DNA of 64,000 nucleotides from an uncultured Ignavibacteria bacterium (GCA_913061095.1 CAJXVM010000023.1:1-64000); one strand, 5' to 3'. Positions 28,685 to 44,786 are shown, counted from the stretch's first letter. Translations and numbers: made by a program. The notes: generated from the letters alone by a model not told the origin.

Positions 28685-31132
28685 CTATCGGTCGATGACA
28701 AGCAGCTTTGATGCGCCTTCACCCGCCGTGTGTATCTGCACCACATACACACCCGGTCGAATACCGTGCAGATCGAAGTTGACGAAATGGTCCGTGCCCG
28801 ACAGCGTCTCCTGCCTGCGCACTTCCCTGCCAAGCAGATCGCGGAGCAGCAGCAGCGCAGCATGCGAACCCTGCAGCCGCAGATGCACGGTGACCCTGTC
28901 ATCGGCGGGATAGGGATACAGCTCGAACATGCGGACAGTCGCGGGAAGGACCTTCACGTCGAGCACATCGACGGTGAACGGATCCGACAGGGCCGTGCAG
29001 CCGTTGCTGTCGGTGATCTGCACGGCGTATGTGCCGGGCTGCGTGCAGAGATGCTTCCGCCACGTCGCGCTCGTGATCGGCTCTCCGTCGCGGTACCATT
29101 GCCAGCCGGCCGCCTCCGTGGTCACCAGCGAATCACCGCGCCGCTCGATCGGCGGTGTCGCGGGCGACGGCCAGACGGTCACCGTCACGGTATCACTGTA
29201 TACGGTGCCGCCACCGGGATAATCCATCTCGCAGAAGTACCTGCCGCTGCTGCCGACGACAATGCCGGGTGTTCCTTCTCCGTTGGACCAGCGGTACGCG
29301 TTGAAGCCGGGACCTGCATACAGCGTCACCTCCCCTCCCTCGCAAAATGCGAGATCGCCGCCGGCGGCAATGCGCGGCGCGGCCAACGCGGGGACGCTCA
29401 GAACCGTCCCGCACATGACGGAATCCACATTTCTGCCGTATGTCCATACCTGCACCGAGTAATCCTCGGCAGTCGGGGCGGGTGGATACGCCAGCGTCCA
29501 CTGCGCGAGCGCCTGCTGCAGTCCGGGGATCCTGGCGGGATACAGCGCCTTCGTGAAACGGTCCGCGTCGTTCCCCGCCAGCGAGAGTCCGGCGGGCAGC
29601 ACGATGGTCGCGAACACGGAGTCCGACGGCATGGTGCCCTCATTGTTCACCTGCAGCGACGCGGGCAGCGGCAGCGGACCCAGGCGCATCGTCGCGCTGT
29701 CGAGCACGACGTCCGGCATGGTCACCGTGCATCGCAGCGACGGCGGAATCCGCGGTGCATGAATGCGCACCTGCGCGCCGTCGAAGCGCGGGATGCGGCA
29801 TCCCGCTTCGAACAGGCCGTCCACCGCCTCGACCATGCATGTGACAGCGGTGTCGGGATCGGCAAGCACGCGGAAGCGGAAATTCATCAGCGTTCCGCCA
29901 CCGGATATGACCTTGCGGTCCGCGGTCGCGATTCGGACACCGCCCGGAACGGGAGCACTGGAAACCGGCACACCGTCGAGTGGCGAGCCCGCAGGGATTG
30001 ACACATCGAGGAATTCCAGGCACTGCGCGTCATACTGCAGCGTGAATTCCAGCGGATGCATCAGCTGTTCGGGACCGAGAAGCGGAATCATCAGCGGCAT
30101 GGTGAACACCGAATCCGACAGTACATCTCCCCCGAGAAGATCAAAGAACATGTCGGTGAACGTCGTTGAGTCGAGCGGCGCACGGTAGGTCTTTGTCTTG
30201 ACGTCCGATCCGCCGCAGAAATCATCCAGCCGCAACTCCACGGTACGGAGCGCGCCATCCGCGCAGTCGCGCCAGGAGGTGATCACGCATTCGTTGCCGA
30301 ACGGGTTCGCTGTGATTTCAGCATAAATGTCATGATACACACTCTGCTGCGGCTGTTGATAGTAGCGTCCGCCGGTCTGCTCCGCAATATTCGTGAGTAC
30401 GACCGGATTGATGCTCGATCCGATGCCGATCGTGTAAATGGGGATGTGGTTGCGGTTCGCACGCGAGATGATCTCCTCTGGCGTGCGCGTCGACGAGCCG
30501 TCCTGTCCGTCGGTCATCACGATCACCGCGCGGCACTGGTTGATCCCGTTGCTGATCACTTCGAGCATTCCGGTATATATCGCATCGTACAGCGCCGTGC
30601 CGCCGGCGGTGGGCAGGGAATCAACCGCCGCGTACAGGAGTGGTTTATGCGTCGTCGCCTGCTGCCTGATGGTGATTGTATTATTGAACCAGATGACCGC
30701 GGCCTCGTCGACCTGCCCGTCCATCTGGTCAATCCAGGTGCGCGCCGAAGCCTTGGCGTATGCATTTCCGGGCCCGATCATCGAACCCGATGCGTCGAGC
30801 ACGAGTGCGACCGAACCGGTGCAGCGCAGGGAGGTATCGGGACAGAAGAGTTGAAAATCCTCCACCTCCATCCCGTTTTCAAACAGACGGAAATCCTGTC
30901 GCGCCATGTGAAATGCCTGCTGGCCGTCGCAGCCCACAGTGAAAAACAGCGCAACCTGCGGCCATTCAATCTCGATGCTCCTGAAATTCAGATTGGGCTG
31001 CGCCTGCAGCGGCGGCGGAGCGTGCAGAAGCAGAAGCAGAATGAACAATGGCAGAAACTTCCGCACAACAGACGGCGGATCGGACGGTAGAAAAACGACA
31101 TGCGGATTTCCCTCAGGCGAAGCGGTTCTCAT
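28685..31132 (-). CDS. Secreted VWA-domain protein with type IX sorting domain (paralogue 4)
   Basis: The 815-residue paralogue of the three VWA proteins at 9.5-19.8 kb is shorter because it lacks one CARDB/Ig block. The signal segment (FLPLFILLLLLHAPPPLQAQ) lies at about 26-45. The shared module NLNFRSIEIEWP precedes a VWA domain with MIDAS DASGSM at 113-118 and VMTDGQD. A DFCGGSDVKTKTYRAPLDS segment matches the other paralogues, followed by cohesin-like, one CARDB-like and Ig/PKD-like (DSNGCTALSDP) domains and a sorting domain (LYPYPADDRV, LRDLLGREV). The CCGGGGGTAT leader just before its ATG is shared with the paralogue at 19834. It has its own GCGCTTGACT-type promoter (31251-31279). Confidence 0.87.
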   Translation of the reverse strand: MRTASPEGNPHVVFLPSDPPSVVRKFLPLFILLLLLHAPPPLQAQPNLNFRSIEIEWPQVALFFTVGCDGQQAFHMARQDFRLFENGMEVEDFQLFCPDTSLRCTGSVALVLDASGSMIGPGNAYAKASARTWIDQMDGQVDEAAVIWFNNTITIRQQATTHKPLLYAAVDSLPTAGGTALYDAIYTGMLEVISNGINQCRAVIVMTDGQDGSSTRTPEEIISRANRNHIPIYTIGIGSSINPVVLTNIAEQTGGRYYQQPQQSVYHDIYAEITANPFGNECVITSWRDCADGALRTVELRLDDFCGGSDVKTKTYRAPLDSTTFTDMFFDLLGGDVLSDSVFTMPLMIPLLGPEQLMHPLEFTLQYDAQCLEFLDVSIPAGSPLDGVPVSSAPVPGGVRIATADRKVISGGGTLMNFRFRVLADPDTAVTCMVEAVDGLFEAGCRIPRFDGAQVRIHAPRIPPSLRCTVTMPDVVLDSATMRLGPLPLPASLQVNNEGTMPSDSVFATIVLPAGLSLAGNDADRFTKALYPARIPGLQQALAQWTLAYPPAPTAEDYSVQVWTYGRNVDSVMCGTVLSVPALAAPRIAAGGDLAFCEGGEVTLYAGPGFNAYRWSNGEGTPGIVVGSSGRYFCEMDYPGGGTVYSDTVTVTVWPSPATPPIERRGDSLVTTEAAGWQWYRDGEPITSATWRKHLCTQPGTYAVQITDSNGCTALSDPFTVDVLDVKVLPATVRMFELYPYPADDRVTVHLRLQGSHAALLLLRDLLGREVRRQETLSGTDHFVNFDLHGIRPGVYVVQIHTAGEGASKLLVIDR

Positions 31133-31250
31133 GGCATACCCCCGGAACGGTCCTTGATGAAACAGACATTGATCGGTACGAATCGTCGCTGCGAGGCGAG
31201 GCGGTCAGGATGCTCGTCTTGTATGCGTCAATACAGTAGCAATATATCTC

Positions 31251-31279
31251 ATATTACTGTGTCCGCCCGACGAAGTCAA
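31251..31279 (-). promoter_or_regulatory. Promoter of VWA paralogue 4
   Basis: TTGACT (31279-31274) and TAATAT (31256-31251) are separated by 17 bases. The -35 lies in GCGCTTGACT, shared with the VWA operon promoter at 19982 and the S41 gene promoter at 9502. Confidence 0.68.
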
Positions 31280-31337
31280 GCGCGGGACGCCGCTCGGGCG
31301 AATCGTTGAAAGAAATGCGCGCCCTCTGAAAAACACA

Positions 31338-31366
31338 TTGCGCTTCACACCGTAATTGGATATGTT
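31338..31366 (+). promoter_or_regulatory. Possible promoter of the radical SAM gene
   Basis: TTGCGC (31338-31343) and TATGTT (31361-31366) are spaced by 17 bases, about 115 bases upstream of the ATG at 31482. Match to consensus is moderate. Confidence 0.42.
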
Positions 31367-31481
31367 GATCCCATACGCAACATCCATGTATCGTCGGCGT
31401 CAGCATCGCGCACTGGTACGAAGGATTCACCTGTGCGGCCGGTGAGGTGCATACGTTCCGGTACGATTTCGAGGACTCCTC

Positions 31482-32960
31482 ATGCACATTCTCCTCGTCT
31501 ACCCGACCTATCCGGATACCTTCTGGAGCTTCCGCCACGCGCTGAAATTCGTATCCAAAAAAGCCAGCTTCCCTCCCCTCGGTCTCCTCACGGTCGCCTC
31601 GCTGCTGCCCCCGGCCTGGAAGCGCGAACTCGTGGACATGAATGTTGAGGCCTTGACGGACCAGGCGATCCGTCGTGCCGACTACGTGTTCGTCAGCGCG
31701 ATGTCCGTCCAGAGCGCGTCGGCCGACGATGTCATCCGGCGCTGCAGGGAGCTGCATGTTCCCGTCGTGGCCGGAGGACCGCACTTCACCAGCAGTCCGG
31801 AGCTGTATCCGCAGGTCGACCATCTCGTGCTCGACGAGGCGGAAATGACGCTGCCGGAGTTCTGCCGCGACGTCGAAAACGGGAATCCGAAACCGGGCTA
31901 CCGTGCCGAAGGCTGGGCCGACATCGCGTCGACGCCCGTGCCGCAGTGGGATCTCATTTCCCATCGGCACTACTCGTCGATGAACATTCAATATTCGCGC
32001 GGCTGTCCATTCGACTGCGAATTCTGCGATATCACCGTGCTGTACGGACGCAAACCCCGTACGAAGACACGCGCACAGATCATTGAAGAGCTCGATGCGG
32101 TGTACGCCACGGGCTGGCGCGGGCCGCTCTTCTTCGTCGACGACAACTTCATCGGCAACAAGGCAAAGCTCAAGCGCGACATCCTCCCCGCCGTGGCCGA
32201 CTGGATGGCCGAACACAACCATCCGTTTTACCTCAACACCGAGGCGTCCATCAATCTCGCCGACGATCCCGAACTCATGACGATGATGGTGCGGGCCGGC
32301 TTCGAGGCCGTATTCGTCGGCATCGAGACACTGCATGAAGACAGCCTCGTCTCCTGCGGGAAAAAAGTAAACGAGGGACGCGATCTCATCGCCAGCGTGC
32401 GGCAGTTGCAGCGGGCCGGACTCGAGGTACAGGGTGGGTTCATCGTCGGCTTCGACGAGGATCCACCATCTATTTTCGAGCGCCTGACCGATTTCATCCA
32501 GGAAAGCGGCATCGTCACGGCCATGGTGGGACTGCTCAACGCCCCGAAAGGAACCCGCCTGCACCGGCGCCTGCAGGAAGAAGGGCGCCTGCTGAATGAT
32601 TTCAACGGAAACAACACCGACTTCGCGACAAATTTCATCCCGCGCATGGATGAAGACTCCCTGCTCGAGGGATATCGCAGCGTGCTCGACGCCATCTATG
32701 CCCCGCCGAATTACTATGACCGTGTGCGTCGTTTTCTGAAGACCTTCGATCCGCCGAAGAAAGTATTCCACTTCAACCCGGGATACCTCGCCGCATTGCT
32801 GCGATCGATGGTTGTCATTGGCATCGCGGGGAAGGAGCGGCTGCATTACTGGCGCCTGTTCTTCTGGTCGCTGTTCCGTAAACCACAGCTGTTTTCACTC
32901 GCCATCCTTTTCAGTATTTACGGCTTCCATTTCCGCAAGGTCTCCGACGCGGCGGCATAG
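31482..32960 (+). CDS. B12-binding-domain radical SAM protein
   Basis: The 492-residue enzyme has an N-terminal cobalamin-binding-like Rossmann domain (about 1-150; VSAMSVQSASADDVI, VVAGGPHFTS) and a radical SAM core. Its [4Fe-4S] cysteines are Cys175, Cys179 and Cys182 in YSRGCPFDCEFCD. Later core motifs include FFVDDNF and GGFIVGFDED. The C-terminal 130 residues resemble the DUF4070 tail found in BchE/HpnR-like members. No DxHxxG cobalamin-binding motif was seen in the N-terminal domain, so B12 binding is uncertain. By family it may methylate or rearrange a lipid or tetrapyrrole-like substrate; the neighbours do not reveal which. It ends on a frame that abuts the leader of the transglutaminase gene. 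The opposite-strand 530-codon frame is treated as a shadow. Confidence 0.85.
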   Translation: MHILLVYPTYPDTFWSFRHALKFVSKKASFPPLGLLTVASLLPPAWKRELVDMNVEALTDQAIRRADYVFVSAMSVQSASADDVIRRCRELHVPVVAGGPHFTSSPELYPQVDHLVLDEAEMTLPEFCRDVENGNPKPGYRAEGWADIASTPVPQWDLISHRHYSSMNIQYSRGCPFDCEFCDITVLYGRKPRTKTRAQIIEELDAVYATGWRGPLFFVDDNFIGNKAKLKRDILPAVADWMAEHNHPFYLNTEASINLADDPELMTMMVRAGFEAVFVGIETLHEDSLVSCGKKVNEGRDLIASVRQLQRAGLEVQGGFIVGFDEDPPSIFERLTDFIQESGIVTAMVGLLNAPKGTRLHRRLQEEGRLLNDFNGNNTDFATNFIPRMDEDSLLEGYRSVLDAIYAPPNYYDRVRRFLKTFDPPKKVFHFNPGYLAALLRSMVVIGIAGKERLHYWRLFFWSLFRKPQLFSLAILFSIYGFHFRKVSDAAA

Positions 32961-33079
32961 TGCCGCACGCAACAATTCTGCGGTATTTCCGTATCATGGA
33001 GTATTCAATCTCCATATCCGAATCATTTTCCGCGCCGCCACGCCCGATCCGGATCCGTATGCGACGCAAGGAGGCACGC

Positions 33080-35128
33080 ATGACACCGTATTCCCGCCGC
33101 TCCCTCACTGTCGTCCTTCCGCTGTTTCTTCTGCTCATCTTCGCCACTTCGCTTCCGACCTGCGCCCAGCAGCCTGGCAGCGGCGATGTCTACTATTATG
33201 GCATCGAGATCAGCGATCAGCTCTGCGGCTACGCCGAAATCCGCCTCAGCGAGGGTGAGCATGACGGACGGCCGGTCATCCTTCTCGACGAAGAGGTCTT
33301 CGCCATGATGACGGCACTCGGCAGCACGTTCAATTCACGACAGACCATCCGCTACCGTATCGACCCGGAGACCGGCAATTTCATCTGGCACACAAACGAC
33401 GTCGAACAGGGCGACACGCAACTGGGCGCGGAGTATGCCGTGCACGACGGCGCCGCCTTTTTCCACGACATCGACACGAAAAAGGAAACCCGCATCGATC
33501 TGCCCGAGGGCGCCGTGCTCCCCAATACCATTCTGTATCCACACCTCCTGCGCGCATTTGCGGATCCCGCGACAGAGGAATGCAGCATGCAGGTGCTCAA
33601 CGTCCGCGACGGGGAAGTGCAGAAACATACCTACACCCGCCTCCCCGATGAGGAAATCGACGTGAACGGGAATCCACGCACGGCCATGGTCATCGAGGAA
33701 ATGAACCGCAAGACGGGATTGAAAGTCCGTATGTGGATCGATCCCGAAACAGGATATTTTCTGCAGGGACATGTACTCAACCGCCGCATCTTCCGCACGG
33801 ATCCCTCCGTGGTCAAGCGCGTCAAGGTCGCCGACATGAACTCCTCCATCCTGGTGAAAACCAATGAGAACATCGGCGACATCCAGGGCATCACGAAGAT
33901 GAAAGTCCGCGCGCGACTCGAACCCGTCGGAATATGGGTGACCGAGGACGGACTCAACGGACCCGGACAGTCCTTCAGCGGCACCATCGATGAAAACGCC
34001 ATCGACGGTGTCTTCGAAATCAGCCACGCCCGCTATGACGGCACGGATGCGCCACCCTTCCCGCCCGACTTCTCCGGCAGCGAGGAATTGCGAACCTATA
34101 TCGAGCCATCCACATTCTGCGAATCCGATGATCCGGTGCTCGTCGCAAAAGCGAAAGAGATCACTGCCGGCGCGACCGACGCATGGGACGCGGCGCGGAG
34201 ACTCAGCGCATGGGTGGCGGAGAACATCAATTACGCCATTCCCGGAGGCGGTACCGCGCGGAAAACATATGACGTCCGCGCCGGGGAATGCGGCGCGCAC
34301 TCGATGCTGCTCACCGCCTTCTGCCGCGCCGTGGGGATTCCCGCCCGCGTGGTGTGGGGATGCATGTACACGCCAAACCTCGGCGGATCATTCGGACAGC
34401 ACGGCTGGAATGAAATATACATGGGGGATGCCGGTTGGATTCCCGTCGACGCCACCGCCCATGAAATCGACTTCGCTGATTCAGGACACCTGCGCATCGG
34501 CGAGATGGAGTCCACCGTCATCGCACTCAATGCCGAGGAATTCGAAATCCTCGACTATCAGCTCGGCACCGGAGAAGTCGATGTCGCTGCCGTCAAACGT
34601 CTGCAGCCCTATCTCGGCACGTACAGCAGCGCCGTCGTAAACAACAAACCCTTCGAAGTGCTGGAGCAGAACGGCAAACTGGGTGTCAGTATCCCCGACA
34701 AGATGGTGCTCGTTTTCAACGATCCCGGCGAAAACGGACTCTGGCCCTGCCAGCTCGCCCCGAAGCTGAACCTGTCCTTCGAGAAGGACGACGACGGTGC
34801 CATCATCGCCCTGAAGCTCATGGAAGACAACCGCATGCCGCGAAAGGACACCGATACGGAAATCCCCGACGACGTGCCCGAACGGCTTCGTCCTCTGCTG
34901 GGCGTTTTCGTACTCACCGCGCTGAAAGCGGACTTCAGCATCATCTATGAAACCGAACGCCTCTGCCTGCAGGAACCGCGCGGGAAAATCTATCCGCTGC
35001 AATTCGTGAAGGATGAAGGATACTGGGAAGCCGAGGACGGCAGCCGTCGTGTGCGATTCGAGACGGAGAACGGCAAGGCGGCCACGGCCATCATGGCGAC
35101 GCATATCACGCGACTCGAACGGCAGTAG
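33080..35128 (+). CDS. Exported transglutaminase-like protein
   Basis: The 682-residue protein starts at 33080, preceded by AAGGAGG 6 bases upstream, with a signal peptide (VVLPLFLLLIFATSLPTCAQ). The central part (about 350-500) is a transglutaminase-like fold with the Cys-His-Asp triad visible in GECGAHSMLLTAF, GQHGWNEIYM and WIPVDATAHE. The first 300 residues form an unrecognised beta-rich domain, also seen upstream of transglutaminase domains in other Bacteroidota-type proteins. No sorting domain is present, so a periplasmic location is likely. An earlier in-frame start at 32960 lacks a ribosome-binding site. Peptidase or cross-linking activity is possible; the substrate is unknown. Confidence 0.82.
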   Translation: MTPYSRRSLTVVLPLFLLLIFATSLPTCAQQPGSGDVYYYGIEISDQLCGYAEIRLSEGEHDGRPVILLDEEVFAMMTALGSTFNSRQTIRYRIDPETGNFIWHTNDVEQGDTQLGAEYAVHDGAAFFHDIDTKKETRIDLPEGAVLPNTILYPHLLRAFADPATEECSMQVLNVRDGEVQKHTYTRLPDEEIDVNGNPRTAMVIEEMNRKTGLKVRMWIDPETGYFLQGHVLNRRIFRTDPSVVKRVKVADMNSSILVKTNENIGDIQGITKMKVRARLEPVGIWVTEDGLNGPGQSFSGTIDENAIDGVFEISHARYDGTDAPPFPPDFSGSEELRTYIEPSTFCESDDPVLVAKAKEITAGATDAWDAARRLSAWVAENINYAIPGGGTARKTYDVRAGECGAHSMLLTAFCRAVGIPARVVWGCMYTPNLGGSFGQHGWNEIYMGDAGWIPVDATAHEIDFADSGHLRIGEMESTVIALNAEEFEILDYQLGTGEVDVAAVKRLQPYLGTYSSAVVNNKPFEVLEQNGKLGVSIPDKMVLVFNDPGENGLWPCQLAPKLNLSFEKDDDGAIIALKLMEDNRMPRKDTDTEIPDDVPERLRPLLGVFVLTALKADFSIIYETERLCLQEPRGKIYPLQFVKDEGYWEAEDGSRRVRFETENGKAATAIMATHITRLERQ

Positions 35129-35145
35129 AACACGGCACAGACGGA

Positions 35146-35176
35146 TGCGCAGTGCGATCCCCGCTCGCACTGCGCA
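35146..35176. terminator. Perfect 12-bp stem-loop after the transglutaminase gene
   Basis: TGCGCAGTGCGA (35146-35157) and its exact reverse complement (35165-35176) are separated by 7 bases, 17 bases past the stop at 35128. There is no T-run, so it is a weak intrinsic terminator candidate; it could instead be an operator or a processing site upstream of nikR. Confidence 0.45.
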
Positions 35177-35206
35177 GCGCCGCTGCGCCGGAGGCAGGGG
35201 CGGCGT

Positions 35207-35235
35207 TTCCGCAACTCGTCCGGTGATTGTACTTT
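35207..35235 (+). promoter_or_regulatory. Weak promoter candidate for the nickel operon
   Basis: TTCCGC (35207-35212) and TACTTT (35230-35235) are spaced by 17 bases just upstream of nikR. Each hexamer matches only about half of the consensus. The dyad at 35238-35262 would cover the transcription start and the ribosome-binding site. Confidence 0.3.
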
Positions 35236-35237
35236 AG

Positions 35238-35262
35238 GGGGAACATTCGTCCGAGGTTCCCC
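35238..35262. promoter_or_regulatory. Dyad over the nikR ribosome-binding site
   Basis: GGGGAAC (35238-35244) and GTTCCCC (35256-35262) form a perfect inverted repeat with an 11-base spacer that ends immediately before the nikR ATG and includes its GAGG. It could be an autoregulatory operator or an RNA hairpin hiding the ribosome-binding site. Confidence 0.42.
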
Positions 35263-35673
35263 ATGAAGCTTCTCCGTTTCGGTGTATCCCTTCCTGAAGA
35301 CCTGATGAAAAAATTCGACCGGCTGGTCAAGCGCCGACGCTGGCCCAACCGGTCGGAGGCCATCCGTGACCTGATCCGCCGCGAGCTCGTGCAGGAGGAT
35401 ATCGCCAGCGACCGCATCGTCGCCGGTGTGCTCAGCCTGCTGTACGACCATCACAAATCGGCGATATCCGAGAAGCTCACCGCCCTGCAGCACGACCATC
35501 ACAAATCCATCATCAGCACCACGCACGTGCATCTCGATCATGACAACTGTCTGGAGGTGATCCTGCTGCATGGACGCGCGAAGGACATCAAACAGTTCGC
35601 CGACGGCATCATTTCCATCAAGGGCGTCAAGCACGGTGGACTGCATCTCACTTCCAAAGGCGCGGGGCTGGAC
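35263..35673 (+). CDS. nikR: NikR-type nickel-responsive transcriptional regulator
   Basis: The 137-residue protein has an N-terminal ribbon-helix-helix DNA-binding domain (KLLRFGVSLPEDLMKKFD, RSEAIRDLIRREL) and a C-terminal ACT-like nickel-binding domain. The four nickel ligands of NikR are conserved in position: His77, then His88 and His90 in THVHLDHDNC, and Cys96 (equivalent to E. coli His76, His87, His89 and Cys95). Length matches the family. The ATG at 35263 has GAGG upstream. Its TGA is directly followed by the GTG of the ECF T-component gene. By family it represses nickel uptake genes when nickel is abundant. A dyad overlies its own start, and another lies near the TonB receptor promoter. 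Confidence 0.93.
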
Positions 35674-35676
35674 TGA

Positions 35677-36477
35677 GTGACACCCGCCTTCGGCATACCG
35701 CACACGTCTCCCGCCGGCCCGTCGACGGCTCTCCCCTCCTCCATATCTGCGGATGCACGTTACGGCGATCCCCGCGCGCTGCTGCTGCTGCTCACGGGTG
35801 CCACGGTCAGCGCCGTCCTCCTGCCCGCCGATCTGCGCCTCGGCCTGCTCGCCGCGCTGCTCATGCTCTCCGCCGCCGTCACAGGCACGCCCGGAGCGCT
35901 GCTCCGCAAACTCCGCATCGTCGTTCCGATGACGCTCGCCATCGGCATCGCCGTCGCGCTGCAGTCCCCGGGCGAGCAACTGCTCTGGCGGATCATCGGT
36001 ATCGAAATCACGCGTGAGGGAGTTACGGCTGGAGGCGTCGTCGCATTGCGCCTGCTGCTCGTCGCCGCCTCCTCCCTGCTCTTCACCCTGCTCGTGCCGA
36101 TCTCCGATGCGGTGGCCGCACTGCGACAGCTCCTCGTGCCGTCGACCGTCGTCGCTGTCGCCTGGCTCACCGACCGCTTCCTCACGCTGCTCGCCGCCGA
36201 TGCGCGCCGCATGATGGAAAGCGTGCAGGCACGTTCCGCCGCGCTCTCCCTGCCCCGACGCATCAGCCTCAGCACGCGCGTGTCGGGTACCTTTCTCGTC
36301 CGTGCCGTCGGACGAAGTGACACGCTCGCCGACGCCATGACCGCCCGCGGTTTCGACGGACGCATCCCTGCCCTGCGCATTCTCCGGTGGCGGCGTCGCG
36401 ACACCGTGATCTCCGCGGCGGGACTCGCGCTGCTGTTTCTCATCTGGCTCCTGCCTCACGCATGGATGCAGCCATGA
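35677..36477 (+). CDS. ECF transporter transmembrane (T) component, CbiQ/NikQ-like
   Basis: The 266-residue membrane protein starts at a GTG touching the nikR stop codon. Four or five hydrophobic helices are visible (ALLLLLTGATVSAVLLP, LGLLAALLMLSAAVTG, and one at the C-terminus, VISAAGLALLFLIWLLP). The cytoplasmic coupling part carries VQARSAALS and TARGFDGR, equivalents of the two Ala-Arg-Gly motifs; the first has drifted to ARS. Overlaps the ATPase start by 4 bases (ATGA). It couples ATP hydrolysis to the substrate-binding S component. In this locus the substrate is inferred to be nickel or a nickel chelate, from the nikR linkage only. Confidence 0.85.
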   Translation: MTPAFGIPHTSPAGPSTALPSSISADARYGDPRALLLLLTGATVSAVLLPADLRLGLLAALLMLSAAVTGTPGALLRKLRIVVPMTLAIGIAVALQSPGEQLLWRIIGIEITREGVTAGGVVALRLLLVAASSLLFTLLVPISDAVAALRQLLVPSTVVAVAWLTDRFLTLLAADARRMMESVQARSAALSLPRRISLSTRVSGTFLVRAVGRSDTLADAMTARGFDGRIPALRILRWRRRDTVISAAGLALLFLIWLLPHAWMQP

Positions 36478-37217
36478 GTGACACTGCAGTCATTCTCGAG
36501 TGCCGCGAGGTGCGCAGCAGTTATCCCGACGGAACACAGGCGCTCACGGACGTGTCGTTCAGCATGCGGGAAGGGGAACGCGTCGCGCTGATCGGCCCCA
36601 ACGGCGCGGGCAAATCCACCCTGCTGCGCGCACTGATCGGCGTGCAGCCCTCGGAGGGAGACATCCACGTTGACGGTATCAGGCTGACAACAAAAACGCT
36701 GCGGGATATCCGCACGCGCGTGGGGCTCATTTTCCAGAATCCCGACGACCAGCTGTTTTCTCCTACTATAGAAGAGGATGTCGGCTTCGGTCCTGCCGCG
36801 ATGGGACTGTCGCGTGAGGAGGTTCGCGAGCGGGTGCGTGCCGCGCTTGAGGATGTCGGTCTCAGTGCTGCCGGCCGCAATCCCCTGCATCTGAGTTTCG
36901 GCGAACGGCGCCTGGCTGCCATCGCCGCGGTGCTCTCGATGCGTCCCGCACTGCTCGCCATGGACGAGCCCACGAGCAACCTCGATCCCGCGCATCGCCG
37001 CCGTCTGATCCGCTGGCTGCGAAAGCGCGAGAGCGAAACCATCCTGCTTGCCACGCATGACCTCGACATGGTCGCGGAGACCTGCGACCGTGTCATCCTT
37101 CTTTCCCGCCGCGTCGCCGCCGACGGTTCCGCCCGCGACATCCTCACCGACACCGACCTGCTTGCCGAACACGGCCTCGAACCGCCGCTGGGAATGCAGG
37201 GGATTGAGTTTCGATGA
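36474..37217 (+). CDS. ECF transporter ATP-binding (A) component, CbiO/NikO-like
   Basis: The 247-residue ATPase has Walker A GPNGAGKSTL, a Q-loop FQNPDDQLF typical of ECF A components, signature LSFGERRLAAIAAVL, Walker B LLAMDEPTSNLDP and H-loop LATHD. The QNPDDQ and LSFGE combination is that of CbiO/NikO rather than of importers with periplasmic binding proteins. The ATG at 36474 overlaps the T-component stop (ATGA). It is a single A subunit, as in group I ECF transporters for nickel or cobalt. A GC-rich hairpin follows the stop (37228-37247). Confidence 0.92.
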   Translation: MSDTAVILECREVRSSYPDGTQALTDVSFSMREGERVALIGPNGAGKSTLLRALIGVQPSEGDIHVDGIRLTTKTLRDIRTRVGLIFQNPDDQLFSPTIEEDVGFGPAAMGLSREEVRERVRAALEDVGLSAAGRNPLHLSFGERRLAAIAAVLSMRPALLAMDEPTSNLDPAHRRRLIRWLRKRESETILLATHDLDMVAETCDRVILLSRRVAADGSARDILTDTDLLAEHGLEPPLGMQGIEFR

Positions 37218-37227
37218 CCCCGCCAAA

Positions 37228-37247
37228 CCCCACCCTCACGGGTGGGG
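37228..37247. terminator. GC-rich hairpin after the ECF ATPase gene
   Basis: CCCCACCC (37228-37235) pairs perfectly with GGGTGGGG (37240-37247) around a 4-base loop, 10 bases after the ATPase stop. No T-run follows, so it may attenuate transcription or stabilise the 3' end of the upstream transcript rather than terminate it fully. Confidence 0.45.
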
Positions 37248-37267
37248 CTACCACCTCCCAATCACAT

Positions 37268-37347
37268 GGACAACGGTATCCACACGCGTACGCGGCCGGC
37301 AGCTCACGATCCCACGGACAACGGTATCCACACGCGTAAGCGTGTGG
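37268..37347. repeat. Two copies of a 23-bp direct repeat with a hairpin
   Basis: The 23-base sequence starting GGACAACGGTATCC and ending ACACGCGTA occurs at 37268-37290 and again at 37316-37338, a 48-bp period. The second copy runs into a perfect hairpin, CCACACGC (37328-37335) with GCGTGTGG (37340-37347) and loop GTAA. It lies between the ECF ATPase and the TonB receptor promoter. It may be a REP-like element; no other copy was noticed in this window. Confidence 0.6.
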
Positions 37348-37381
37348 TCGCGCGTATCCCGACAAAACAGACATCTCCCCC

Positions 37382-37410
37382 TTGTATCCCCCTGATCGCC
37401 ACCGTATATT
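37382..37410 (+). promoter_or_regulatory. Promoter of the TonB-dependent receptor gene
   Basis: TTGTAT (37382-37387) and TATATT (37405-37410) are separated by 17 bases. The inverted repeat at 37411-37439 starts at the next base, covering the expected transcription start, an arrangement typical of repression. Confidence 0.6.
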
Positions 37411-37439
37411 GGTAGCACGAATTTGAGTTTCGTGTTACC
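37411..37439. promoter_or_regulatory. Candidate NikR operator upstream of the TonB receptor
   Basis: GGTAGCACGAA (37411-37421) and TTCGTGTTACC (37429-37439) form an 11-bp dyad (one mismatch as DNA, G-U as RNA) around 7 bases. Read as half sites it is GTAGCA, 15 bases, TGTTAC, close in layout to the E. coli NikR site GTATGA-16 bases-TCATAC. It directly follows the -10 and ends 15 bases before the ATG. An RNA hairpin role cannot be excluded. Confidence 0.5.
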
Positions 37440-37454
37440 GAAATATTCAGACGG

Positions 37455-39329
37455 ATGAAACAGATTACAGATTATTTTCCCGCCTTCGCCGTCGCGCCTC
37501 CGGCGTTTCGGCTTCGGCGCGGCCTGCGGCTGCTCCTTCTCCTGCTCGTGCTCGTGCTCCCTGCGCAGGCGCAGCAGGATGACATCCCCTTCTATTCGAT
37601 AAAGGATTCCGCGGTGATCGTGGCGGGACGCTACACCACCACGCTCGCGCGCGAAACGAATTCCATTGCGGTGATCCCGGGCGAGGAGATCACCCGCCTG
37701 GCCGACCACTCCGCCCTCGAGGCGCTGCAATGGGAAGTGCCCTCCGCCTTTCTCGCGGAGACGCGCGTCGGTGGCTTCGGCGTCGGCACGCAGGGCACCG
37801 GCATGATCACCCTGCGCGGCATGGGCGGCAAACCCAATACGGGCGTCGCCGTCATGGTCGACGGACACCCGGATTTCATGGGGATATTCGGCCATCCGCT
37901 GCCGGATGTCTATGGCATGGACGACGTGGAGCGTGTGGACGTGCTGCTCGGTCCGGCATCGACGGTGTTCGGCGGACACGCGCTCGGCGGCGTGATCAAC
38001 ATCGTCAGCGCACCGGTGCGCCGCAATACGCTGCGCGCCTCGGTGGAGGCCGGCACGTGGAATACATACAGTGCCTCTGCCGGTATCTCGCGTGCGCTCG
38101 GCGATCATGGCTTCCGTCTCGCTCTGCGGCACAGCAGCTCCGACGGACACGTGCCACAGAGCGACTTCCGCTCCACCCGCGTGCAGGCCGCCTGGGAGTG
38201 GCACATGTCAGACGCCTGGCAGCTGTCCCTGCGCGGACGCTACGCTCCCTCACAATACGACGATCCCACGCGCACGAGCGATCCGGCCGGACTCGGCACC
38301 TACGCCGACATCCGCCGCGGAATGGGGCAGCTCCGCCTCGAGAATGACCTCGGTTCGATCACTGGCTCCACGCAGGCGCATTTCAACACCGGGCACCATG
38401 AATTCTTCGATGGTTTCGTCTCCGACGACCGCACCGTGGGCGTCTCCACCTATCAGCAGTGGCGCGCCTCGAGCACGTTCAGCATCGCCGCCGGCGGTGA
38501 ATTCCTGCAGTACGGCGGCGAGGCCAATCTCGACAACGTCGAGCACCTCATGAACACGACCGGCGTGTATGCGCTCGCCATGTACAGTCCCGCCGATATC
38601 GTGCATCTGCGCGGCGGCATCCGGTATCAGCATCACAGCCTCGGCTTTTCCAGCGTCGCGCCCACGCTCGGCGTGAGCGTGACGCCGCTCGCCGGACTCC
38701 GCGTTTACGCCAGCATGCAGAGTGGCTTCCGCCATCCCACGCTGCGCGAACTGTACCTCTTTCCGCCCTCCAATCCCGACCTCACCGAGGAGTTCAGCCG
38801 CGGCTACGAGATCGGCACCGAGTACGTCTTCGCACAGGGATCGGTACGCATCGCGGCGTTCCGCAACGACGTGCGCGACATGATCGCCCTCGTCGGCAAT
38901 CCCTCGCCCCCGCCGCCCGTGCGCTTCCGCAACGCCGTGGACGCAGACCAGCTCGGCGCGGAGGCGTCGCTGCGCTACCGTCTGACGTCGTTCCTCATCG
39001 GGCAGGCTTCGTGGAGCACGCTCGATCCCGACGGACGCACTGCCTTTTCGCCCGCACAGCAGTTCAAGTACATGCTGCACGCGCTTCTGGGGGATGTACG
39101 TGTGACGCTTTCGGGACAGTATTTCGAGGATCTCTTCGCCGGGGATGACAGCACGCTGCCCATGCCCGACGCGCATGTGCTCGACATGACGGTGAGCTGG
39201 CGCTCGCCCTGGCCGGTGGAGCTGTATCTCAAGGGACGCAACATCCTCGACCGGCAGTATTCCATTCTGCCCGGCTACGCCGCGCCGGGCGCCCACGTGC
39301 TCGCGGGAGTGCGCTATGCGATGGACTGA
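37455..39329 (+). CDS. TonB-dependent outer-membrane receptor in the nikR-ECF locus
   Basis: The 624-residue receptor has a signal peptide (LRLLLLLLVLVLPAQAQ). A plug domain (about 50-190) contains NTGVAVMVDGHPDF, VERVDVLLGPASTVFG and GGVINIVS, and is followed by a 22-strand-type barrel ending GRNILDRQYSI and VLAGVRYAMD. The first part (DSAVIVAGRYTTTLARETNS) is a short TonB-box-like region. There is no carboxypeptidase-regulatory-like extension, unlike the receptor at 56330. The gene has its own promoter and dyad. Its last 14 bases overlap the start of the ECF S-component gene, so receptor and inner-membrane substrate binder are translationally linked. It probably imports the ligand handled by the ECF transporter, inferred to be nickel or a nickel complex. 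A cobalamin-like ligand is an alternative. Confidence 0.88.
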   Translation: MKQITDYFPAFAVAPPAFRLRRGLRLLLLLLVLVLPAQAQQDDIPFYSIKDSAVIVAGRYTTTLARETNSIAVIPGEEITRLADHSALEALQWEVPSAFLAETRVGGFGVGTQGTGMITLRGMGGKPNTGVAVMVDGHPDFMGIFGHPLPDVYGMDDVERVDVLLGPASTVFGGHALGGVINIVSAPVRRNTLRASVEAGTWNTYSASAGISRALGDHGFRLALRHSSSDGHVPQSDFRSTRVQAAWEWHMSDAWQLSLRGRYAPSQYDDPTRTSDPAGLGTYADIRRGMGQLRLENDLGSITGSTQAHFNTGHHEFFDGFVSDDRTVGVSTYQQWRASSTFSIAAGGEFLQYGGEANLDNVEHLMNTTGVYALAMYSPADIVHLRGGIRYQHHSLGFSSVAPTLGVSVTPLAGLRVYASMQSGFRHPTLRELYLFPPSNPDLTEEFSRGYEIGTEYVFAQGSVRIAAFRNDVRDMIALVGNPSPPPPVRFRNAVDADQLGAEASLRYRLTSFLIGQASWSTLDPDGRTAFSPAQQFKYMLHALLGDVRVTLSGQYFEDLFAGDDSTLPMPDAHVLDMTVSWRSPWPVELYLKGRNILDRQYSILPGYAAPGAHVLAGVRYAMD

Positions 39330-39927
39330 CAGGAAACGCGCATTACAAAAGGCGCGGCGCGACGACACACCGGTCTCCGGCGCCCTGCTTCCCGAAGACG
39401 ACGTGCGCCGCATCCCGCTCGCGGCCATGTTCACCGCGCTCGGTGTGCTCTTCCCGCAGCTGTTCCACATGATGGGACTCGGCGCCACCTTCCTCCCGAT
39501 GTTCCTCCCGGTGCTGACCGCGGCCATGCTGCTGCGCATGCGCCTCGCGCTGACGGTGGCAGCCCTCACCCCGGTGCTTTCCTGGCTGCTCACCGGCATG
39601 CCGCCGCTCTCTCCGCCCGTGCTCCCGCTGCTCATCGCGGAGCTGACCGTTTCTGCGGCCGTCATCTCACATCTGCGCCTGCAGCGCGGATGGCGCGTGC
39701 TTCCGGCACTCGCTGTCGGACTTCTCGTCGATCGTGCCCTGCTCTACATAATCATCGAAACGGTGACCGCGCTCGCGGGGATACGGCACCCGATGTTCGG
39801 TCCTGCCGCCGTGCTCGTCGGTCTCCCCGGCATCGCGTTACAGCTCATCGTCATCCCACCCGCCGTCACGCTGATCGTGCGCCGCTTCCCGCGCTTCATC
39901 CCCTCCTCCGTCGCGGAGCGCGGCTGA
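39316..39927 (+). CDS. ECF transporter substrate-binding (S) component of unassigned specificity
   Basis: The 203-residue membrane protein has about six hydrophobic segments. IPLAAMFTALGVLFPQLFHM, FLPMFLPVLTAAMLL and LSWLLTGMPPLSPPVLPLL together match the S-component pattern known from Gram-positive ECF systems. The amino terminus (MRWTDRKRALQKARRDD) lacks the His-containing MH start that forms the metal site of NikM/CbiM, and no NikN-like partner is present. GGGAG lies 6 bases before the ATG, which overlaps the receptor gene by 14 bases. The last base of its TGA is the first base of the methyltransferase ATG (TGATG). It should give the ECF module its specificity; this may be a metal chelate rather than free nickel. 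Confidence 0.72.
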   Translation: MRWTDRKRALQKARRDDTPVSGALLPEDDVRRIPLAAMFTALGVLFPQLFHMMGLGATFLPMFLPVLTAAMLLRMRLALTVAALTPVLSWLLTGMPPLSPPVLPLLIAELTVSAAVISHLRLQRGWRVLPALAVGLLVDRALLYIIIETVTALAGIRHPMFGPAAVLVGLPGIALQLIVIPPAVTLIVRRFPRFIPSSVAERG

Positions 39928-40622
39928 TGAACGCACTGCTCCGCAAGCAGGCCTTTTTTGACGGCGTCGTGCCCGACTGGATTCGCGACACCGATGAACG
40001 CAGCGCCCGTCTCGCCGAACTCTTCGCCGCATACGACCTCCCCGTCGACGCCCCCGTGCTCGACGTCGGCGCCGGCGCGGGCATCATGCTGCCGTTCCTG
40101 CTGAAGCAGCTGCAAATGAAACAGCAGCACACGCCCGAAACCACTGCGGCCGATCCCTCCGAGTTCATTCGCGAACAACAAGAAGCAATCGATACTCCCC
40201 CCGCCGGTCCTGCCGTCATCGAACTCGAAATCTCCCCGGAAATGCTGCGCATGGCGCGCGCCACGCACGGTACGGATAACGGCATCGCCTACCTGCGGGC
40301 CGACGCGCATCACCTGCCCTTCCCCGACTCGTTCTTCAGGTGCGTGCACTGCTTCAGCGTATACCCGCACTTCGACCATCCCCGGCGCGCGCTCGCCGAG
40401 TTCCGGCGCTGCCTGCGTCCGGACGGCGCACTGTGCATCCTGCATCTCATGGGTCACGAGGAATTGAACGCCATCCACCGCGATGCTGGACGCGTCGTCG
40501 CCGAAGACCGCCTCCCGCCCGTGGATCGCGTGGCGGAGATTATTGAGGAATCCGGGTTTGTGGTGCGTTACGCCGAAGAACGCAGCGATCTGTACCTGGT
40601 GGTGGCGGGCAGGAACGGATAG
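39927..40622 (+). CDS. Class I SAM-dependent methyltransferase in the nikR-ECF locus
   Basis: The 231-residue protein has motif I VLDVGAGAGIMLPFL, an acidic motif II VIELEISPEMLRMA, LRADAHHLPFPDSF, and CVHCFSVYPHFDHPRRAL followed by FRRCLRPDGALCILHL. Between motifs I and II about 45 polar, Gln- and Thr-rich residues are inserted (KQQHTPETTAADPSEF), much longer than usual for the family. The ATG overlaps the S-component stop by one base, so it belongs to the same operon. The substrate is unknown. One inference is modification or breakdown of an imported metal chelator. Confidence 0.8.
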   Translation: MNALLRKQAFFDGVVPDWIRDTDERSARLAELFAAYDLPVDAPVLDVGAGAGIMLPFLLKQLQMKQQHTPETTAADPSEFIREQQEAIDTPPAGPAVIELEISPEMLRMARATHGTDNGIAYLRADAHHLPFPDSFFRCVHCFSVYPHFDHPRRALAEFRRCLRPDGALCILHLMGHEELNAIHRDAGRVVAEDRLPPVDRVAEIIEESGFVVRYAEERSDLYLVVAGRNG

Positions 40623-40626
40623 GATC

Positions 40627-40792
40627 GCGAGGATCGGTGTCCTGTATCGACCAACGTCACAGAATGCTGGACGGTAGGGCCGAGCCAACGGCTCTGCCTG
40701 GGGGATACGGGAAACGCGAGGATCGGTATCGTGTATCGACCAACGTCACAGAATGCTGGACGGTAGGGCCGAGCCAACGGCTCGGCCTGGGG
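40627..40792. repeat. 89-bp tandem duplication with GC-rich hairpin (REP-like)
   Basis: A unit beginning GCGAGGATCGGT occurs at 40627-40715 and 40716-40792 with only a few differences. Each copy contains a hairpin; in the second it is perfect, GGCCGAGCC (40767-40775), loop AAC, GGCTCGGCC (40779-40787). It lies between the convergent methyltransferase and FN3 protein genes and may serve as a bidirectional terminator or be a REP-type repeat. A partial extra copy of the hairpin sequence (CCAACGGCACGGCTCGGCC) follows. Confidence 0.7.
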
Positions 40793-40817
40793 CCAACGGC
40801 ACGGCTCGGCCAGGAAC

Positions 40818-43202
40818 CTACCGCACAACCACCATCCTGTCCATCACCACCCCATCCCCCGCGCGCAGCACCGCGAGGTACATCCCCGGCCGCAATCCGC
40901 GCGCGTCAAAACGCACACTGTGTATTCCCGCCGAACGGTATCCTTCAGCAATCACGGCCGCCTCCCGTCCGAGCATGTCGTACACACGAAGCGACACCAC
41001 CGCTGCGCGGGGAAGCGAGATTGTCATCACACCCTCCGTGCGAAGCGGACTGGGCGCGTGTGACAGCGTCATCATCACGGGACGGGCCGCCACGTCACGG
41101 ACTTCCACCGGTGCTTCATCGACGCGATACACGTGCATCACCAGCATCCCCTCGGCCTCGCGCACGAACTCCGTCACATACAGCAGCCGGCTTCCTTCGT
41201 CCCAGGTGGTGGAAAAAATTTCACGCGCGGTACCGAAGAATATCGCCGTATCCAGACGCACAGCACCATATGGCTGCGGCGTATGCGATTCCATCTGGCC
41301 AGCGGCGACCGCTGCCAGGTCATCCACATCGTAGAGCATGACCGTGGGACATAATCCGTGCGCCCGCCATCCCTTGCCGTCGGGATCGGTTTCGTCGAAC
41401 GTCGGCATGGGCACGTCGGCGATCACCCAGTCGAGCGGCATGTGCTCGCCGTGATATCCGTACCAGTTGTCGCCGTGTGCCTTGACACCGATCACCGCCG
41501 CGGCCGATTGTGACCCAACCGTGAGCCACTGAGCCCCGCGCCAGTCATCCGCGTGATTGTAGTCATACACGGCATCGGGGAAATGATAGTTGTCACTACC
41601 CGCAACCGATCCGTACTCGAGCAGGGTTGTGAAATCCAGCTGCGCGTTCGCGGCGGGAGGAGACGTGCCGACCGGCTCCCAGGCATACATGGTCGGCCCC
41701 AGTCCGCTGAGTCCGCCGTCGCGGAAACGCCCGACAGCAAGCCGGCGGTCATCCGTATGCTGCGCCGCCCAGTCCGCTGGCAGCGTGCACAGCCAGGATC
41801 CGAACTGCGCCTCGATCGGCGGCGTACCGGGAGCGCCGAGATACCAGGGACCGAGGTAGGGTCCGGCGGAAAGGTCACCCGCCGAACAGGCGCTCAGGGT
41901 CGCATGCTTTTCGCCGCTGACCGTGTAGTGAATGCTCCATGAACTGTAAAGGCGCTGCTCGTCCTGCAGATACGCGAGTCCAGTGCGCCATATGTCGACA
42001 TACTCCCAGGCGTTGACCCCGGCCGGACGGATGTTCACCGGGGTTTGCAGGATGGACGCTTCTGGAAGTGCCTCCACGCTGCCCGCGTTCGGCACGGGCG
42101 CGGGGATACTCACCTCGCCGACCAGTCCGTTTTCCGGCTGATTCAGGTTCGTCACGAACAACGATCCAGGGCAGCCGTCGAATCCGCCGCCGGGATCGCC
42201 ATCCACGCGATACGCACTCGCCTCCCCGCCCCAGGCAAAATCCTCCGGCATGCGGAAGGCACCGAGATACACGAACTCGCTCGGATCGATCCGTGTGCCG
42301 TCTGTCTGAAACGAAGCGGTACGTACGGTGAGCGGAGCGGAGTGCTGACTTTCATTCCCCATTACGTCCCGCGCGACGACAGTGAAGCGGTATTCATGCC
42401 CGGGCTCCAGGTAGCACGCGGTATGGGAATCCTCACGGCTGTATCCCTCGACCGCTCCGTCCATGAACACCAGGTAATCTGCGACCCCCACATCATCGTC
42501 CGGTTCGTTCCAGGCGAGCGCAATTCTTGAATCCATCACCGATGTCGCCCGCAGTCCCGTCGGCGCATCGGGCGGCGTATGGTCCGCGGCATCGAGTTCG
42601 ATGCGGTCGCAGACCAGGTGCTGCTTCATGTCACTCGATCCCCACTCGATGGCGAGGTTGACATTCACAAGCGCGAAGCTCTCGTCGGTTTTATGCACGC
42701 CGGCGTCACAGATCGCGAACACCGTGCGCACCGTTTCTCCGGGTTCCGCCTCCGACCAGGTCTCCCGGTAATCGGCATGCGAGCGCATCGTGTACCAAGG
42801 ACCGGATGATGATCCGCCGTCCGGCTGGTCGGCATCGGTGAAACTCACGCGCGCCGTGAAGCGGATGGTTTCCTGCGAGCGGTTATACCAGGTCACGATC
42901 AGACGATCAGCCGTGGTGAACAATCTCGAGGTCCCCCGCACGCCCTGGTAATCGGAGAATTCATCGGCGGAAGCGTCCGCGACGAGTCCGCCCGGACCGT
43001 CGGCGGTATACGACACGCCGACACTTTTGATGAGCGTGCTCCACCCGGCCATTCCGAAGGTATTGGCACCAGCATCGGAGCCGAAATCCACCAGCAGCGT
43101 CTGCGCCGACAGGGTAGGAACATACAGGCAAAGCAACAGGATGATGACCGGAAAAACGGGCTGCATTCCATGCGTCCGCACATCCGTGAATGATGATTTC
43201 AT
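40818..43202 (-). CDS. Secreted FN3-containing protein with type IX sorting domain
   Basis: The 794-residue protein has a signal peptide (FPVIILLLCLYVPTLSAQ). A beta-sandwich domain of about 170 residues (LLVDFGSDAGANTFG start) is followed by one fibronectin type III domain (about 205-295; DAPTGLRATSV, EYRFTVVARDV). A long domain of about 400 residues (VYLGAFRMPEDFAWGG to FVREAEGMLVM) may be a DUF4185-like propeller but is not recognised with certainty. The sorting domain reads HAPSPLRTEGVMTI, VYDMLGREA, LRPGMYLAVL. GAGG lies upstream of the ATG at 43202. Function is unknown; surface glycan or protein binding is likely from the architecture. Confidence 0.83.
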   Translation of the reverse strand: MKSSFTDVRTHGMQPVFPVIILLLCLYVPTLSAQTLLVDFGSDAGANTFGMAGWSTLIKSVGVSYTADGPGGLVADASADEFSDYQGVRGTSRLFTTADRLIVTWYNRSQETIRFTARVSFTDADQPDGGSSSGPWYTMRSHADYRETWSEAEPGETVRTVFAICDAGVHKTDESFALVNVNLAIEWGSSDMKQHLVCDRIELDAADHTPPDAPTGLRATSVMDSRIALAWNEPDDDVGVADYLVFMDGAVEGYSREDSHTACYLEPGHEYRFTVVARDVMGNESQHSAPLTVRTASFQTDGTRIDPSEFVYLGAFRMPEDFAWGGEASAYRVDGDPGGGFDGCPGSLFVTNLNQPENGLVGEVSIPAPVPNAGSVEALPEASILQTPVNIRPAGVNAWEYVDIWRTGLAYLQDEQRLYSSWSIHYTVSGEKHATLSACSAGDLSAGPYLGPWYLGAPGTPPIEAQFGSWLCTLPADWAAQHTDDRRLAVGRFRDGGLSGLGPTMYAWEPVGTSPPAANAQLDFTTLLEYGSVAGSDNYHFPDAVYDYNHADDWRGAQWLTVGSQSAAAVIGVKAHGDNWYGYHGEHMPLDWVIADVPMPTFDETDPDGKGWRAHGLCPTVMLYDVDDLAAVAAGQMESHTPQPYGAVRLDTAIFFGTAREIFSTTWDEGSRLLYVTEFVREAEGMLVMHVYRVDEAPVEVRDVAARPVMMTLSHAPSPLRTEGVMTISLPRAAVVSLRVYDMLGREAAVIAEGYRSAGIHSVRFDARGLRPGMYLAVLRAGDGVVMDRMVVVR

Positions 43203-43241
43203 GACGGGAATCCTCGCGAATTACGACTGCAGATGATGGGC

Positions 43242-43270
43242 AATATCATCTCCCCCCGGACCAAAATCAA
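43242..43270 (-). promoter_or_regulatory. Promoter candidate of the FN3 protein gene
   Basis: TTGATT (43270-43265) and GATATT (43247-43242) are separated by 17 bases on the minus strand, about 40 bases before the ATG at 43202. A small inverted repeat GATGAT/ATCATC (43232-43250) overlaps the -10. Confidence 0.42.
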
Positions 43271-43347
43271 GATTTCAAACGAGAATATCGGATGCTCGCC
43301 CCGCACCCGGCTTTCAGCGCAAAATGCATCCCTCTCTCCGACATGAT

Positions 43348-43407
43348 TTTTACCCGGGTAAAATAGCCTTTTTACCCGGGTAAAATGGGGGTTTTACCCG
43401 GGTAATA
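43348..43407. promoter_or_regulatory. Three 16-bp palindromes at a 22-bp period upstream of the sulfur operon
   Basis: TTTTACCCGGGTAAAA occurs perfectly at 43348-43363 and 43370-43385, and with one changed base at 43392-43407. Centres are exactly 22 bp apart, so three dimers would line up on one DNA face. Such spaced dyads are typical of operator arrays. They lie about 150 bases upstream of the SQR-like gene and 145 bases upstream of the divergent gene. The binding protein is not encoded in the window as far as can be seen. Confidence 0.75.
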
Positions 43408-43489
43408 TTCCGCATCATGTGTCTGCGCAACAATGCGAATGGAAAAAAAGCAAAAAAATCACGATTAACAGGTCATGTCCGTGAATCTT

Positions 43490-43516
43490 TTGAACTTACT
43501 GCACATCAAATACAAT
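43490..43516 (+). promoter_or_regulatory. Weak promoter candidate of the sulfur operon
   Basis: TTGAAC (43490-43495) and TACAAT (43511-43516) are good hexamers but are spaced by only 15 bases, about 40 bases upstream of the ATG at 43555. The short spacer suggests that an activator may be needed. Confidence 0.38.
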
Positions 43517-43554
43517 GACAAATCTTTCAGCTCTTACACCACACGGAGCACCTC

Positions 43555-44784
43555 ATGAAAAACCTCGTCATTCTCGGTGCCGGAACAGCGGGCACCATGA
43601 TGCTGAACAAGATGCATGCCATGCTCGACAGCAGTCAGTGGCAGCTCACCATCGTCGATCAGTATGAGACGCACTACTACCAGCCGGGATTTCTCTTCAT
43701 TCCCTTTGGCATATATTCGCGCAAGGACGTCATCAAACCGAAACGGGATTTTTTTCCCGCGGGCACCAATGTCATCGTCTCCGGTATCGACCGCATCGAA
43801 GCGAATGAAAACCGGGTACTGCTCGCCAACGGACAGGTTCTCCCCTACGACCTGCTCATCGTCGCCACGGGCGCGAAGATCGTGCCGGAGGAAATCGAAG
43901 GATTGAAGGACAGTCTCTGGCAGAAGGACATTTTTGACTATTACACCATCGAGGGCGCGTGCGGTCTCGCCGAGAGATTCCGTCACTGGGAAGGCGGCAA
44001 GCTCGTGCTCAACGTCGCGGAGATGCCGATCAAATGTCCCGTCGCCCCGCTGGAATTCGTCTTCCTCGCCGACTGGTGGTTCACCGAGCAGGGCATCCGT
44101 GACAAGGTCGACATCCACTACGTCACGCCGCTGCCCGGCGCCTTCACCAAGCCGCGCGCATCGAGCATTCTCGGGGATTTCCTCGACAAGAAGAACATTC
44201 ACCTGACCGCGGAATTCAACATCGCGCGCGTGGACAACGAGGAGAAGAAGATCGTCTCGTGGGATGAAACCGAAATCCCCTTCGACATCCTCGTCTCCAT
44301 CCCCACGAACATGGGCGACGAAATGGTCGAGCGCAGCGGTCTCGGCGACGAGTTGCGCTTCATTCCCACCGACAAACACACGCTGCAGTCCGACGCGCAC
44401 GAAAACATCTTTGTCATCGGTGACGCCACGAACCTGCCGAGTTCGAAGGCCGGTTCGGTGGCGCATTTCCAGGCCGACATCCTCACCGAAAACATTCTCT
44501 CGTACATCGAGGGGCGTCCCCTGCGGTCGACCTTCGACGGACACGCGAACTGCTTCATCGAATCCGGTTTCGGCAAGGGCATACTCATCGACTTCAACTA
44601 TGACACCGAACCCCTGCCGGGCAAATTCCCGCTGCCGGGCGTCGGTCCCTTCTCGCTGCTCGAGGAGACGGAGATGAATCACTACGGCAAGATCATGTTC
44701 CGCTGGATGTACTGGAATTTCCTGCTCCGCGGCAAGGAACTGCCGATCGAATCGCACATGTCGATGGCCGGAAAGAGGATGTGA
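43555..44784 (+). CDS. Sulfide:quinone oxidoreductase-like flavoprotein
   Basis: The 409-residue protein has an N-terminal FAD-binding GAGTAG (8-13), a second dinucleotide segment DLLIVATGAK and the FAD-closing VIGDAT. Cysteines at 136, 161 (IKCPVAPLEF) and 333 (ANCFIESGFGKG) fit the SQR cysteine pattern; 161 and 333 would be the redox-active pair. The C-terminus lacks an obvious amphipathic membrane helix longer than usual. The ATG follows CACGGAGCACCTC. By family it oxidises sulfide to a polysulfide or persulfide and passes electrons to quinone. The three downstream genes encode sulfur-carrier-type proteins, supporting a sulfide oxidation or detoxification role. Confidence 0.85.
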   Translation: MKNLVILGAGTAGTMMLNKMHAMLDSSQWQLTIVDQYETHYYQPGFLFIPFGIYSRKDVIKPKRDFFPAGTNVIVSGIDRIEANENRVLLANGQVLPYDLLIVATGAKIVPEEIEGLKDSLWQKDIFDYYTIEGACGLAERFRHWEGGKLVLNVAEMPIKCPVAPLEFVFLADWWFTEQGIRDKVDIHYVTPLPGAFTKPRASSILGDFLDKKNIHLTAEFNIARVDNEEKKIVSWDETEIPFDILVSIPTNMGDEMVERSGLGDELRFIPTDKHTLQSDAHENIFVIGDATNLPSSKAGSVAHFQADILTENILSYIEGRPLRSTFDGHANCFIESGFGKGILIDFNYDTEPLPGKFPLPGVGPFSLLEETEMNHYGKIMFRWMYWNFLLRGKELPIESHMSMAGKRM

Positions 44785-44786
44785 CC

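Follow-up and report, generated by a model that had tools for sequence, protein, structure and literature searches.

A six-gene cluster in the genome of an uncultured Ignavibacteria bacterium probably encodes (we put the probability at roughly 70%) a complete nickel-uptake system, reaching from an outer-membrane receptor to an ATP-driven inner-membrane pump, in which an undescribed subunit, seen next to nickel genes in several bacterial lineages, stands in for the usual nickel-binding one. The six genes, nikR, ecfT, ecfA, a TonB receptor gene and the genes for an S component and a methyltransferase (MT), follow one another on the + strand of the 64 kb stretch of DNA analyzed here, hereafter the window (Table 1). 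By computation we determined gene content, order and conservation, the operator sequence, links to nickel enzymes and the fold of the S component.

Table 1. Features of the cluster, in window coordinates
Feature	Position	Strand	Description
nikR	35263-35676	+	137 aa; NikR_C 113 bits; two NikR equivalog models above curated cut-off
ecfT (CbiQ family)	35677-36477	+	PF02361, 87.8 bits (cut-off 25)
ecfA, ECF-type ATPase	36474-37217	+	ABC_tran (PF00005), 107.8 bits
Predicted NikR operator	37412-37438	.	GTAGCAC-N13-GTGTTAC; 13/14 against the published reversed NikR signal
TonB-dependent outer-membrane receptor	37455-39329	+	PF00593 and PF07715
S component, non-NikM, undescribed subfamily	39316-39927	+	203 aa; PF12822 below cut-off; AF2 model
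Class I SAM methyltransferase	39927-40622	+	PF08241, 68.7 bits

Reading frames and family matches bear out the gene order and overlaps given in the first-pass annotation, which began the cluster at 35146, about 117 bases upstream of the nikR ATG. nikR and ecfT abut, ecfT and ecfA overlap by ATGA, the receptor and S genes overlap by 14 bases, and the S and MT genes have one base in common (TGATG). The top NCBIfam models for ecfA are ECF ATPases, with scores under their cut-offs. Two direct repeats lie in or beside the cluster, each in two copies: one of 43 bases (86% identical, 37252-37342) between ecfA and the predicted operator, and one of 85 bases (93% identical, 40626-40799) just 3' of the MT gene. 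Upstream of the cluster (31482-32960) is a gene for a B12-binding radical SAM protein with DUF4070, a homologue of which stands directly 5' of nikR in a locus of the same genus (L062).

When genome contigs were scanned with the S protein, six relatives came up (43–68% identity). S has TonB and MT genes as neighbours in all of them, except that only MT remains where a contig starts within S; nikR, ecfT and ecfA are also present in the three relatives with enough upstream flank. A profile of seven S proteins (A1) matched in 24 of 245 genomes of the bacterium's own class and in 15 of 40 Calditrichota genomes. Fifteen loci from two lineages keep nikR-T-A-TonB-S-MT complete and in order, namely six genomes of the same family (the window, L002/L044, L045, L046, L047, and L048) and nine Calditrichota loci (L006, L007, L106, L107, L108, L109, L110, L114, and L115). 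Because the same genes recur in the same order in all 15, the arrangement is not a chance one, and this genome-context search removes an objection raised in the first-pass annotation itself, that the order might not be kept in relatives.

Partial and rearranged versions are also found. TonB-S-MT stands without adjacent nikR-T-A in L113, L116, and L117, and similarly in L105 and L112, which are cut by contig ends. Distant S homologues within the class occur as nikR-TonB-S-MT (L049 and L054), nikR-TonB-S-MT-T-A (L050), nikR-TonB-S-cupin (L056 and L059), nikR-S-cupin (L080), and TonB-S with nikR on the opposite strand (L058); elsewhere nikR and S are adjacent with no TonB detected (L052), and TonB-S-MT-T-A is present without nikR (L051). 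Across the 245 genomes of the class, S occurs in 24, NikR in 47 and both in 18 (Fisher p = 3e-10, a statistic that ignores kinship and is confounded by shared ancestry). Some S-bearing genomes (G518, G457, G419, G531, and G523) have no EcfT match at all, and S may therefore work there alone or with another partner. Other distant S homologues, whose neighbours were named by first residues only, lie near cobK/cbiG-like genes with a phosphoribosyltransferase-like neighbour (L085, 5976-11966) or near a metH-like gene (L060 and L088). The EcfT-free genomes and these neighbourhoods count against the nickel reading.

The NikR of the window has identical residues at the positions aligned with the metal ligands of E. 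coli NikR, which we take to be H76, H87, H89, and C95; as to membership of a NikR regulon, the alignment thus places a repressor with an intact metal site in the genome. The predicted operator ends sixteen bases 5' of the tonB ATG. It resembles the reversed form (GTAACAC-N13-GTGTTAC) of the published NikR signal GTGTTAC-N13/14-GTAACAC (Rodionov et al. 2004, PMC545781). With up to one mismatch allowed, such a site occurs at a single place in the window (0.04 expected by chance per 64 kb), and its exact degenerate pattern occurs once in the whole 4.6 Mb genome, at this site. Six relatives from the same family carry the reversed site at the tonB start as well, matching 11–14 of 14 positions (L046 and L048, 14/14; L047, 13/14; L002 and L063, 12/14; L045, 11/14); since it overlaps the longest-frame start in several of them, translation of tonB in those genomes probably begins downstream of that position. 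In Calditrichota, the forward form (12–14 of 14) precedes nikR in L106, L108, L109, L110, and L115, and tonB in L115 and L117. No NikR site of operator type was found before nikR in the window, and a sigma-70 scan, which is uninformative in this lineage, returned no promoter-like site. Judged by sequence, the predicted operator would regulate tonB, S and MT. In genomes lacking S (loci L069, L071, L072, L077, and L079), nikR has another recurrent partner: the adjoining gene encodes a protein of ~245 aa that looks secreted and carries a CFDTYLFL motif.

The only EcfT match in the bacterium's own genome is the cluster's ecfT, and its only PF12822 protein is the cluster's S. A search of the genome that covered, among importers, the CbiM/NikM (PF01891), NicO and HupE_UreJ families gave no match, and several [NiFe]-hydrogenase large subunits are encoded. 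Among the S-bearing genomes examined, [NiFe]-hydrogenase-family matches were present in 18 of 18 and CbiM was absent from 17. Nickel enzymes are also direct neighbours of S homologues: in L057, the [NiFe]-hydrogenase small and large subunit genes flank S and a cupin, with hypA and hypB downstream; in L089, the small and large subunit genes are followed by S and a cupin; and in L054, the nikR-TonB-S-MT set faces a hydrogenase operon. In L053, L055, and L061, S belongs to a cluster of sugar-acid genes that includes one for a LarA-type enzyme (UxaC was checked in L055), and the L055 enzyme scores 660 bits with the NCBIfam model (cut-off 500) for a nickel-pincer-dependent putative hexonate epimerase. 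These settings recall Lar(MN)QO and the hydrogenase- or urease-linked nickel ECF systems, in which the importer is encoded beside the nickel enzyme that it serves; those systems use NikM-type S components. Genomic context gives good support to the view that the cluster would encode a nickel importer of the ECF type whose S component is not a NikM.

As the first-pass annotation had it, the S protein is not a NikM: it has no CbiM/NikM domain (PF01891) and lacks the N-terminal MHIPDG metal site, beginning instead with MRWTDRKR. The window copy falls short of the PF12822 gathering score (21.1 vs 30.7 bits), which is exceeded by the orthologues in L048 (37.9 bits) and L110 (31.3 bits) and by the homologue in L089 (36.1 bits). 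In a Foldseek search with an AF2 model built from A1 (pLDDT 84, pTM 0.77), the best 14 PDB matches were all ECF S components (probability 0.85–1.00, weak E-values of 0.02 to 1.3, TM up to 0.74 by target length). RibU, ThiT, BioY, FolT, and related S components make up these matches, and NikM is absent among those listed. By sequence, phmmer gave one chance match in the PDB and a profile search none. The protein thus shares the fold of vitamin S components (probability up to 1.00) but stands outside every vitamin-specific sequence family and in a nickel gene context. An NCBIfam scan of the S homologues put no such family above its curated cut-off; the nearest, FolT, scored 12.5 bits for the window copy (E 0.09) and 12–20 bits among homologues (best E 0.0004, in L089) against a cut-off of 60. 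Kinship with a vitamin-specific family, which the first-pass annotation had named as the outcome that would count against its reading, was therefore not seen in the profile comparisons.

Conserved residues of S point to where a metal could bind. His51 is invariant across 43 homologues, while Met62 and Arg140 are kept in 36/37 and 37/37 nickel-linked rows, respectively, vs 1/6 each in homologues without a nickel link, a small and uneven comparison group of six. From a helix map and the known topology of S components, His51, Met62, and Gly94-Met95-Pro96 would lie at the outer end, on the substrate-binding side, and His51, Met62, and Met95 are candidate metal ligands; His51 may be structural, as it is also conserved in S homologues without a nickel link. 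The nickel-linked rows were not recovered as one clade in the S tree, whose deep forks are weak and whose long branches meet, and we therefore do not claim a single nickel clade.

The strongest evidence for nickel as the cargo of S is that NikM takes the same slot in L067. The order there is nikR-TonB-cupin-NikM-T-A, and the NikM is canonical (CbiM/NikM, 207.9 bits, MHIPDG start), so that one position next to this receptor family is held by S in some loci and by NikM in L067. A locus with an NikR motif, a TonB receptor and nik genes is also reported, as a second one, for Caldithrix abyssi (PMC5317091). We infer Ni2+ as the cargo of S, and the slot exchange, a comparison of gene neighbourhoods, would mildly favour Ni2+ over an organic chelate. 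The first-pass annotation had proposed a NikR-linked ECF importer that has its own receptor and an S component other than NikM; conserved order, operator and nickel-enzyme links uphold this. Its further suggestion, that S may take up a chelate and that the MT could act on the ligand, is the less likely part.

In that alternative, an organic nickel complex, such as a nickelophore or another chelate, would pass through receptor and S component, and the MT would modify or release the ligand in the cell. TonB receptors usually carry large complexes, a conserved MT gene lies directly 3' of S in nearly all core loci, and the S model resembles the vitamin-type structures RibU, ThiT, and BioY rather than any NikM among the PDB matches listed. 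Even so, we regard this as unlikely: L067 pairs the same receptor family with canonical NikM, which is known to bind bare Ni2+, and no ligand-synthesis genes were seen in the cluster. The MT itself argues in the same direction. It follows nikR and TonB without any S gene in L063 (5612-8712) and L073 (5193-8287), and therefore goes with the receptor rather than with S; the L073 set adjoins a [NiFe]-hydrogenase operon. In other loci (e.g. L056, L059, and L080) a cupin takes its place. A version in which the MT, or the cupin replacing it, acts on the ligand or receives the metal, with S dedicated to a metal complex, seems to us just as doubtful.

Profile and fold searches with the MT returned generic small-molecule class I enzymes and indicated no substrate. 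Its nearest NCBIfam model is the DVU_1556 family (NF045667), at 66.4 bits against a cut-off of 155. His148, His173, and His184 are invariant in 29 homologues, and some 30 residues are inserted into the window copy, within a stretch of low confidence.

The receptor raises another alternative, that the cluster is a cobalamin or cobalt uptake system and only by chance a neighbour of nikR. Its nearest solved structure is BtuB (E 1e-12), its best NCBIfam match is the BtuB model TIGR01779 (TonB-B12), and some distant S homologues lie near B12-like genes. We consider this very unlikely, as the receptor scores only 95.3 bits with that model against a cut-off of 599.7, a riboswitch search at 30000-45000 found none, the cobalamin type included, the predicted NikR operator is directly 5' of the receptor gene, and the links are to hydrogenases and a nickel epimerase. 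Still less credible is an ECF transporter for folate, riboflavin or another vitamin, of a family already known, placed under NikR by coincidence, for which the sub-threshold likeness of S to FolT could be cited, against the size of the shortfall from the FolT cut-off, the lack of any PDB sequence match for the S profile, and a nickel context repeated in separate lineages.

Nickel uptake through the cluster would proceed as follows. When nickel is scarce, NikR would leave the operator before the tonB gene, and receptor, S component and MT would be made. Nickel, either free or in a loose complex, would cross the outer membrane through the receptor, and S would bind it at the outer face, at the predicted His51/Met62/Met95 site, and pass it inward with the dedicated EcfT/EcfA pair. 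The imported nickel would feed the [NiFe] hydrogenases.

The cluster resembles NikMNQO and NikKMLQO (PMC545781, PMC2667541) in predicted NikR regulation, a CbiQ-type T component, an ECF ATPase, a single dedicated S component and links to nickel enzymes. It differs from them in an S component without PF01891 or the MHIPDG site, in the absence of NikN, and in the addition of a receptor and a methyltransferase. For C. abyssi, a locus with NikR, cbiQO-like genes, a TonB receptor and a NikR-like motif (Cabys_1316-1319) was proposed in 2017 to serve nickel uptake, its genes being named nikMNQO by homology (PMC5317091). The passages of that paper on the locus describe neither an S gene nor a methyltransferase 3' of the receptor; the Calditrichota locus L110 shows the same arrangement and may be that locus. 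In the literature covered, mainly open-access papers, we came across no account of a nickel S component outside the NikM family. The nickel-uptake idea for C. abyssi is thus already published, and the new elements here are the S family and how widely it occurs, its recurrent nickel contexts and the exchange of S with NikM.

At present, CbiM/NikM is the mark by which nickel ECF importers are recognized. Should another S family fill this role in this class and in Calditrichota, nickel uptake is going unnoticed in genomes that encode nickel enzymes without a NikM, and a fold of the vitamin S type would have been turned to metal transport. The NikR-controlled receptor, methyltransferase and cupin are candidate partners in that uptake.
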